Origin: Candidatus Muproteobacteria bacterium RIFCSPHIGHO2_12_FULL_60_33
Lineage (GTDB): Bacteria > Pseudomonadota > Gammaproteobacteria > Acidiferrobacterales > Sulfurifustaceae
NCBI GenBank assembly: GCA_001785195.1
Contig: MFTB01000048.1
Location: 1 to 45,351 of the forward strand
DNA: 45,351 nucleotides
Direction: 5' to 3'
This document shows positions 4,938-40,306 of the stretch, piece by piece (positions within the stretch are counted from its first letter, which is position 1; every line of letters starts with the position of its first letter). Position numbers and translations under genes: made by a program. The notes beneath the pieces were generated by a model. It made no database searches and was not told the origin of the DNA. It saw nothing but the letters and a program-made list of their open reading frames with translations.

Positions 4938-4965
4938 TCGATTAAGAACCCTCTGATTAACGATA

Positions 4966-5118
4966 ATTCACCGCAAAGGCGCAAAGAGCGCAAAGGTTTT
5001 GTTTTGTTGCGGCCCAGGGTGCAACAAAACCCGTTGCACCCGTTCGGTGGCGCGAATGTTCGCTGAACATTCGCGAGAACTCCACCTTACCCTTCGCGTC
5101 TTTGCGGTGAGAAATATT
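4966..5118. repeat. Composite intergenic repeat: outer CGCAAAG-type inverted repeat enclosing a double-hairpin module
   Basis: caccgcaaaggcgcaaagagcgcaaag...cttcgcgtctttgcggtg; inner GGGTGCAAC/GTTGCACCC and CGCGAATGTTC/GAACATTCGCG hairpins. Confidence 0.85.
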
Positions 5119-5480: not shown

Positions 5481-6602
5481 TTACGACGACGCGTGGGCGA
5501 ACTCAAAGGAATCATAGTACAAGCGGTCCTCCGGCAGGCGATGTTTTTTCACCATGCCCTTGATGGCATCGATCATGGGCGGCGGGCCGCTGGCATACAC
5601 CTCGTGCCGGCTCAGGTCCGGGTGGTCCTCGGCCACCGCCTCGTGCACCCAGCCCTGCCGGCCGCTCCAGTGGTCCTCCGGCTTCGGTTCCGACAGTACC
5701 GGCGTGAATTTGAAATTACTGTGTTGCTTGGCCCAGGCTTGCGGCAGGTCGGGCAGATACAAATCACGCTTGGCGCGCACGCCCCAGTACAGGTGCAGCG
5801 GGCGCTGGATGCCCTGCGCAAAGGCATATTCCAGGATGCTCTTGATGGGCGCAAAGCCGGTGCCGCCCGCGATCAGGATGGCCGGACGGTCCGAGGTCGC
5901 TCTCGACATCCTGTCTCCCGTGACGTACATGGACGTACTAATGTCGCGAGAAGCAGGAAGCTGAGAGCGACCGACATTTGTACTTCCCTGTACATCATCT
6001 TCGCGCAGAAAAAACATCCCGAACGGGCCCTGGAACCGGAGCAGGTCCTTTTCCTTCATTTTCTCGAACACGTGGCCGGTGAAATGCCCGCCCGGGACAT
6101 GGCGGATGTGCAGCTGCAACAATTCATCGGAGAGCGGCGAAGTCGCGAGCGAGAAGCTGCGCCGCTGGTTGCCGCTCAAAAGAATATCGATGTACTGCCC
6201 GGCGAGATATTGCAGCCGCTGGCCCTCGGCCAGTTTGAGCGAGAGTCGCATCACGTCGTCGGCGAGCTTTTCCATTTGCACCACGCGGGCCGGCAGGATG
6301 CGGATGGGGATGTCCTTGGCTGCGGCGATTTCCTTTGCCTCGATCACCAGATCGGACAGGGGTTTAGCCTGACAGAACAAGGCATGTCCGTTTTCCTTCT
6401 CCGCCGCGCTCATGGCCTTGGGCTCGTAGGTCCCGTAATCAACCTCGCCGGAAACAAGTTTTCCCTTGCAGGTGCCGCAGGCGCCGCTGCGGCAACTGTA
6501 GGGCAGCATCACGCCCTGGCGCAGCGCCGCCGCCAGCACGGTTTCTTTTTCCTCCGCGGTAAATTCACGGCCGCTGGATCGGATGCATATCTTGAAGGTC
6601 AT
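5481..6602 (-). CDS. 2Fe-2S ferredoxin domain / FAD-NAD(P) oxidoreductase (CDP-6-deoxy-delta-3,4-glucoseen reductase family)
   Basis: YSCRSGACGTCKGKL cluster motif, RRSFSLATSP flavin motif, ILIAGGTGFAPIKSI nucleotide-binding motif; carries an in-frame palindromic insert. Confidence 0.88.
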   Translation of the reverse strand: MTFKICIRSSGREFTAEEKETVLAAALRQGVMLPYSCRSGACGTCKGKLVSGEVDYGTYEPKAMSAAEKENGHALFCQAKPLSDLVIEAKEIAAAKDIPIRILPARVVQMEKLADDVMRLSLKLAEGQRLQYLAGQYIDILLSGNQRRSFSLATSPLSDELLQLHIRHVPGGHFTGHVFEKMKEKDLLRFQGPFGMFFLREDDVQGSTNVGRSQLPASRDISTSMYVTGDRMSRATSDRPAILIAGGTGFAPIKSILEYAFAQGIQRPLHLYWGVRAKRDLYLPDLPQAWAKQHSNFKFTPVLSEPKPEDHWSGRQGWVHEAVAEDHPDLSRHEVYASGPPPMIDAIKGMVKKHRLPEDRLYYDSFEFAHASS

Positions 6603-6663
6603 GGCAATGGATGCAATGGTTTTTATATTTCTTAAGGAAGTTCTGATCAATTACAAAAAAACT

Positions 6664-6822
6664 ATCTCTCACCGCAAAGGCGCAAAGAGCGCAAAGATTT
6701 TGTTTTGTTGCGGCCCAGGGTGCAACAAAACCCGTTGCACCCGTTCAGCGTCGCGAATGTTCACTGAACATTCGCGAGGACCCCGCCTCACCCTTCGCGT
6801 CTTTGCGGTGAATAATCATTAA
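6664..6822. repeat. Second copy of the composite CGCAAAG/double-hairpin repeat
   Basis: Near-identical to 4966-5118, flanking the other side of the lipoprotein/oxidoreductase pair. Confidence 0.85.
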
Positions 6823-17060: not shown

Positions 17061-17517
17061 GGTGACTTTCTCTTGTGCGCACAAGAGAAAGTCACCAAAG
17101 AGAATGCGCCCCGGTCGCTTCGCCGCCCACACACCGGGCAGTTCCCTGCGCGCCTCGCTGCGGCTGGGCACTCGCCTAACTCGCCGGGCGCCCACAACGC
17201 GCCTCGGGCTCGATCAAAAGTCTCGCGACTTCCCCCAGCCTTGCTCGGTGCTCGGCTCGCTCCGACGGGGATGGGAGCAAACCACCTCAGGCCTGTACGC
17301 GGAGGTGTTTTCCAACCCCGTATGGCGCGCCCGAGCATCGCCAGCCTTTGCCCGCCAGCCCAAAGGGGCGCGGGCGGGAAGCCCGCGCGTCGCGCACGGC
17401 ACAGGGACGTGCCGTTGCGCGACCTGCACGGCAAAGGCGCGAAGCGCAGGATATGCGCACCATCCGGGCGGCCTTCTCTTTGGTTACTTTCTCTTGGCCG
17501 GACAAGAGAAAGTAACC
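17061..17517. repeat. Long composite repeat bounded by two related palindromes
   Basis: ggtgactttctcttgt-gcgc-acaagagaaagtcacc (17061-17096, 16-bp perfect arms) and ggttactttctcttggccggacaagagaaagtaacc (17482-17517); related degraded sequence at 70-112. Confidence 0.8.
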
Positions 17518-35215: not shown

Positions 35216-37504
<2,289 letters not shown>

Positions 37505-40018: not shown

Positions 40019-40306
40019 GTAGCCCGGGTGCAAGCACGAAGTGCCGGGTGAGACGGAGATGTCGTGAATGTCCAGTGGACATTCACGCCGCCGAACGGGT
40101 GCAAATGATTCTCTTGCACCCGGGGCAGCAACGGGGAAAATCATATCGATCCCCGGATTGCGCTGCGCTTCATCCGGGCTACGAATTTGGTCAGACGAAA
40201 TGGCGCGTGGGACTTGCGGCCCGGGGTGCAACAAAAACCGTTGCACCCGTTCGGCGGCGTGAACACACGTTATGTGTGTTCACGAAGGCTCCGCCTCACC
40301 CTACGT
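40019..40306. repeat. Nested repeat cluster with two opposed double-hairpin modules
   Basis: gtagcccgggtgcaagcacgaag ... ccccggattgcgctgcgcttcatccgggctac, plus modules at 40073-40122 (minus) and 40221-40304 (plus). Confidence 0.8.

Follow-up and report, generated by a model that had tools for sequence, protein, structure and literature searches.

Short palindromic DNA elements residing in frame inside proteins were reportedly described by Ogata et al. (2000, 2002) as Rickettsia palindromic elements (RPE); this comparable case is said to have been reported as special to Rickettsia and to have been extended later to Wolbachia, both being intracellular. According to PMC2229807, RPE are about 105–146 bp long, possess terminal inverted repeats and occur in an intracellular alphaproteobacterium, and a guanylate kinase with an RPE is cited there as active. 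Furthermore, intragenic GTAG and CGTC REPs have been described by Di Nocera et al. (2013) in free-living bacteria, including gammaproteobacteria, for instance in uvrA of Thioalkalivibrio (PMC3733652). Because of the latter, palindromes lying in frame in genes of bacteria other than Rickettsia are no novelty in themselves.

The stretch of DNA analysed here (45,351 nucleotides, referred to as the window) belongs to a fragmented bin (G000; 1.86 Mb, 79% complete), most likely that of an uncultured Sulfuricaulis, and contains a reductase gene with an in-frame insert. Very probably, this insert is one member of a dispersed family of short DNA repeats. The repeat would be non-autonomous, would be spreading now or have spread in the past among the chromosomes of gammaproteobacteria, and would be tolerated within proteins. 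The basis of this reading consists of a dispersed family of copies, a gain of 51 or 102 bp over empty sites, the in-frame location, the search of the bin that yielded no second copy of the host genes, and an in-place change from monomer to dimer at other sites. A single 51-bp family parallels the RPE across many gammaproteobacterial lineages, a cultured free-living species included, and essential enzymes carry natural insertions of 17 or 34 residues, with empty, monomer and dimer states among sister species. This makes directly testable how new peptide segments enter proteins, which sites are tolerant, and what moves such repeats.

The insert in the reductase gene

The reductase gene is located on the minus strand (5481–6605; 374 codons plus stop if the ATG at 6605 is the start), its reading frame being the minus-strand ORF 5481–6650 in the ORF list. 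It encodes a 2Fe-2S / FAD / NAD(P) oxidoreductase, an electron-transfer component resembling BenC, MmoC and NqrF, of which the NCBIfam matches (BenC, E = 1.2e-66; MmoC, E = 1.1e-53) all fell under the equivalog cut-offs; its relatives in the PDB are 5ogx and 1krh. A first-pass annotation, made from the letters of the window only, had claimed extra residues in this protein, encoded by a palindromic repeat. The extra residues are real, forming the segment DVQGSTNVGRSQLPASRDISTSMYVTGDRMSRAT, which is encoded by exactly 102 bp (5895–5996, minus strand; 34 codons), as delimited by comparison with the empty sites of congeners and with the copy in the congener G007. As had also been claimed, this length is a multiple of three and devoid of stops, and the insert, located between FFLRED and DRPAILIAGGTGFAPI, sits just before the pyridine-nucleotide-binding loop, i.e., ahead of the ILIAGGTGFAPI strand/loop. 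Similarly, the arms GGTCGCTCTC (5895–5904) and GAGAGCGACC (5963–5972) were retrieved from the sequence. Inverted repeats are indeed there, but the single palindrome proposed earlier turned out to be two interleaved ones (A-B-A'-B'), with 30-nt arms that are 77% complementary and 26-nt arms that are 85% complementary, and the repeat ends at 5996. Folding of the 102-bp insert was better than that of 200 out of 200 shuffled sequences (z = -5.9 as RNA and -4.9 as DNA).

The A-B-A'-B' arrangement is found because one unit sits inverted at the centre of another (..TGTCG | CGGG..). Unit and local alignments placed the 5' half of the outer unit (GATGTACAGGGAAGTACAAATGTCG), with its GTAC...GTAC hairpin, at 5972–5996 on the minus strand. 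The inner unit, 51 bp long and running opposite to the outer one, occupies 5922–5972 on the plus strand (covariance-model score of 74.1 bits), and the 3' half of the outer unit (...GGGAGACAGGATGTCGAGAGCGACC) lies at 5895–5924 on the minus strand according to the unit alignment, its first bases overlapping the end of the inner unit. The 34 extra residues would go back to two insertions, first of one unit into the loop between the FAD-binding and NAD-binding domains, and then of an inverted unit into the middle of the one already there.

The absence of the insert from sister taxa, as anticipated in the first-pass annotation, was found for most tested congeners, but not for G007, which carries it at the same site with about 95–97% DNA identity to the copy in G000. 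The site is empty in all six other members of the genus from which the ortholog was recovered (G001, G003–G006 and G008), as well as in two public MAGs of the genus and in the more distant relatives aligned, except for G010. Homologues in other genera lack the insert residues, the sister G007 alone sharing them. G010, a member of another genus, contains a 28-residue insert in the same loop (L079, G010:C16:39562-40647), of which the sequence is unrelated to the repeat. This suggests that the reductase loop may be an insertion-tolerant position. In addition, the best solved relative (5ogx) differs by three residues in length at the insert loop, which is consistent with a tolerant inter-domain loop.

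The 51-bp unit, its copies and its host genes

The repeat unit comprises 51 bp (17 codons; consensus GATGTACAGGGACGTACAAATGTCGCGAGAGGCAGGATGCCGAGAGCGACC) and folds as two hairpins side by side. Most of the other copies in the bin have half the length of the 102-bp insert. The earlier idea of an RPE-like palindromic unit inside a protein is supported in principle, but the unit measures 51 bp and not about 100 bp, the 102-bp form being a nested dimer. Among 22 aligned units (mean identity of 81%), the shared hairpins are GTAC-N6-GTAC and a GTCGC/GCGAC stem with an inner pair, the stems having 4 and 5 consensus pairs, and both-sided changes that keep the pairing occurred at five of 11 pairs, in up to 10 of the 22 sequences. 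The ends of the unit (CGATGTAC... and ...GAGCGAC) are not mutual inverted repeats, so that a terminal inverted repeat is absent. An Rfam search of the window matched no family. As 51 bp is a multiple of three and the consensus is free of stops in six frames, a gene hit by the unit gains 17 codons and stays in frame. The consensus and about 60% of the copies are open in all six frames versus about 9% of the shuffled copies, and the copies average 0.7–0.85 stops over six frames, compared with 2.3–2.4 after shuffling. Since all copies share one ancestor, this six-frame openness counts as one observation (p of about 0.09) and is not strong proof of adaptation.

The search for other copies that the first-pass annotation had proposed revealed many, both intergenic and genic, with full-length matches at 79–88% identity. 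The bin yielded 38 blast matches and 54 covariance-model matches (E < 1e-4), corresponding to about 49 sites, about 24 of which lie in frame inside genes and 23–25 elsewhere; a weak match in a copper ATPase (L213), possibly due to chance, was set aside. The in-frame hosts, named according to NCBIfam, encompass MiaB, HrpB, YoaA, HemW (two sites), FtsQ, the reductase, BirA, AtpH, CoaBC, Mpl, YgiQ, MurC, ArgRS, ValRS, TldD, Obg, CysRS, a glutamate-synthase-like protein, DnaG, MltA and RNase R. A thermonuclease-like protein and MoaA are further hosts in the bin. The copy length was divisible by three in 24 of 24 copies in genes versus 17 of 23 outside genes (Fisher p = 0.009). When the joined flanks of the hosts were compared with congeners, most hosts displayed clean gaps of 17 residues (34 for dimers); the gaps were one codon off in MurC and MltA, corresponded to a longer variant in DnaG, and were less clean in ValRS. 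A flank search of the bin (79% complete) retrieved no second intact copy of the tested hosts, only distant paralogues, which indirectly favours a translated insert in a host protein that stays active. Of the possible reading frames, the one encoding DVQG..VAG.R..GAT, a peptide with many D, G, S, T and N residues, was preferred (12 of 23 copies, p = 1e-4). This fits loop tolerance, and a target preference may be its source. Insert residues should not be taken for conserved domains during annotation.

A second unit is present in the window at 35388–35438 (minus strand; covariance-model score of 72.7 bits). It adds 17 amino acids in frame to a radical SAM protein of the YgiQ family (NCBIfam TIGR03904), in its C-terminal part between LIPTYQP and GTGQVHEG, and this site is empty in G005, G003 and G007. 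The first-pass annotation had noticed neither this ygiQ copy nor the 51-bp basic unit, the nested dimer and the spread over many gammaproteobacterial lineages. The MoaA copy (L198, G000:C88:10610-10660) is a nested dimer in G000, where the N-terminal and C-terminal parts of the protein are in different frames; moaA of G000 may be frameshifted or misassembled. A copy on C98 seemed, by eye, to be located within a tRNA-Gln-like sequence; disruption of a tRNA was rejected, as ARAGORN detected no tRNA at this copy and placed a complete tRNA-Gln 300 bp from it. Many intergenic copies (L199, L200, L201, L203 and L207) make up a subfamily (AGCGCAGG.ATGCGC) located next to 'CTTTGCG' repeats, and may thus be part of a composite repeat between genes.

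Beyond the genus, the family was found in 30 of 57 genomes of the order and, in the class Gammaproteobacteria, in 75 of 369 sampled genomes (59 of 270 genera), with a patchy distribution. Full copy counts amounted to 123 in G381 (the highest), 53 in G014, 38 in G331 and 29 in G168, and G293 contained at least 15 copies. Hosts in other genomes include TopA, PrlC, TsaD, Tgt, ValRS, HrpB, AnmK, TypA, IleRS and MetE. No match was found in plasmids and phages by a distant blast search, nor in viral contigs with a degenerate exact pattern. G005, a single contig of 2,864,672 bp, corresponds to Sulfuricaulis limicola HA5T, the complete isolate genome of which has the same length (PMC5024460), and carries monomers in Obg, HrpB and MoaA.

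Site history, mobility and alternative explanations

Several sites are occupied by a monomer in one congener and by a dimer in G000, namely MiaB and CoaBC (monomer in G007) and HrpB and Obg (monomer in G005), whereas MoaA has a monomer in both G005 and G007 and is nested in G000 at another internal point. The presence of monomers at the same sites in congeners indicates that dimers arise in situ. In most dimers, the inner unit is of a single subfamily (AAGCAGGA.GCT), distinct from the outer units, and seven nested events took place at one internal base, far more than expected from random insertion (about 0.1% of insertions). This same-base nesting may reflect targeted insertion or, alternatively, gene conversion spreading an existing dimer. 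The sharing of sites is conflicting, as the reductase, MiaB, CoaBC and DnaG join G000 with G007, and HrpB and Obg join G000 with G005; therefore, precise loss, exchange or a second hit must have occurred at some sites. In the tree of these three genomes, the branch support is 59–61% only, so that loss and parallel gain at HrpB and Obg are not told apart. Mpl is a clear case of parallel insertion, since G000 and G331, a member of another family, both have the unit behind one and the same leucine codon and in an identical frame (L269 versus L149), with five congeners empty.

Concerning mobility, the insert junctions had a G before the insert in 36 of 48 cases and a C after it in 39 of 48, the terminal base being ambiguous. 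A self-comparison at lags of 51 and 102 revealed no consistent target-site duplication but only occasional direct repeats of 3–5 bp. The presence of hairpins, combined with the lack of terminal inverted repeats, points to a possible single-strand (HUH-like) mechanism. The unit is probably non-autonomous and would be moved by an enzyme acting in trans. Harmful or lethal insertions would be purged by selection and those in surface or linker loops would survive, the insert presumably being translated, near-neutral for the host protein and, in most hosts, situated in a loop. A more far-reaching possibility, put forward tentatively, is that of a class-wide element adapted to life in proteins. Its codon-multiple length and six open frames would then be adaptations, its inserting enzyme would recognise short targets, namely G|C junctions and the middle of the unit itself, and the same positions would be hit repeatedly, as in mpl of two families and in at least four monomers turned into dimers at one internal base.

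It is unlikely that the element is an ordinary REP, mobilised by a RAYT (REP-associated Y1 tyrosine transposase) and located in genes incidentally. The family shares with the GTAG and CGTC REPs its small hairpins, many copies, inverted pairs and occurrence as singles and dimers, some of them genic, and such REPs add 20–30 residues when dimeric or grouped, according to PMC3733652; in addition, Y1_Tnp genes were present in 18 of the 23 genomes examined. However, none of the 60 Y1_Tnp matches in these 18 genomes had a copy within about 1.5 kb, whereas RAYT genes have GTAG repeats or unrelated terminal inverted repeats on their flanks (PMC3733652), and the copy-rich genomes G014 (87% complete) and G293 lacked a Y1_Tnp match, so that RAYT as the mover is unsupported. 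Judged by the text description in PMC3733652, the unit is also set apart from these REPs by its two-hairpin body of 51 bp instead of 20–40 bp and by dimers formed by one unit splitting another. The consensus has no unpaired GTAG (or GTRG) end tag. CGTC REPs are defined by a terminal CGTC tag, an 8–9 bp stem, a 4–5 bp loop and a CCA-like tail (PMC3733652), whereas the consensus lacks the CGTC tag and has stems of 4 and 5 pairs with other loops. Furthermore, about half of the sites are genic, whereas REPs seldom overlap coding regions (PMC12306157).

Selection keeping the insert in the reductase and other hosts for a gained function (regulation, stability or a binding loop) is improbable, more so than transfer by a RAYT. 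It would account for the conservation of the reductase insert, which differs between G000 and G007 at 5 of 105 bases (95% identical), as compared with 70% identity at the third codon positions of the gene, and which does not fit a purely neutral passenger. The preferred peptide frame (DVQG...SGAT) could also be cited in its favour but may reflect the best-tolerated peptide or the insertion target as well. Against this reading, the hosts are unrelated and most sites are empty in sister species, the codon changes in the insert are two synonymous to three non-synonymous versus 69 to 29 in the flanks, and sister genomes contain a deletion remnant in FtsQ and a 9-bp difference in DnaG. Removal of the segment after transcription or translation, as in an intron or intein, is highly improbable. 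Although a stable fold and a location in essential genes would suit it, 17–34 residues are far under the size of inteins and 51 bp far under that of self-splicing introns (textbook values), the window had no Rfam match, and the frame is kept in every coding copy, which would be needless upon excision from RNA. Practically no weight can be given to a metagenome assembly or binning artefact; the window does come from a fragmented bin, but the same insert occurs with 97% identity in G007 (30 contigs, 99% complete), and the family is carried, as monomers in three genes, by the complete isolate genome of S. limicola. The dispersed, non-autonomous repeat tolerated in proteins is the preferred reading.

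Relation to described repeats and other repeats in the window

This dispersed repeat resembles RPE, as described in PMC10969869 and PMC2229807, in being short palindromic DNA that occurs in and between genes. Its genic copies interrupt a variety of conserved proteins without shifting the frame, and the corresponding sites of orthologs are empty. It differs from RPE by its 51-bp, two-hairpin unit without terminal inverted repeats, as opposed to 105–146 bp with such repeats, and by its occurrence in many families of gammaproteobacteria, one host being a free-living sulfur oxidiser in culture. The family works like RPE but, judged by their description, does not belong to them by size and ends. 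Similarly, Wolbachia palindromic elements (WPE) and the 107-bp Correia element are small open-frame repeats fused in frame to genes (PMC2229807), but they have other hosts, and the Correia element possesses terminal inverted repeats and target-site duplications (PMC2229807), which were not seen for the 51-bp unit. ERIC and other enterobacterial MITEs are likewise palindromic, non-autonomous and occasionally genic, but ERIC is mostly intergenic and has terminal inverted repeats and target-site duplications (PMC2229807, PMC10969869); the unit has no terminal inverted repeat and no consistent target-site duplication. A published description of the 51-bp consensus was not found in the open literature. 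As far as the literature searched shows, the novel aspects are the family of 51-bp units with two hairpins, its distribution throughout the class, the large proportion of copies in essential genes, the occurrence of nested dimers along with intermediates, and the parallel insertion at an identical codon.

The window contains other repeats as well. A second palindromic repeat family (CGTGAATGTCCACTGGACATTCACG and variants) occurs five times (4959–5115, 6660–6816, 272–349, 40047–40124 and 40221–40298), the first two copies being a 157-nt pair with 90% identity that flanks the reductase gene on both sides. In addition, near-perfect 36-nt palindromes (GGTGACTTTCTCTTG..CAAGAGAAAGTCACC) are present as two copies about 420 nt apart, at 17061–17096 and 17482–17517.
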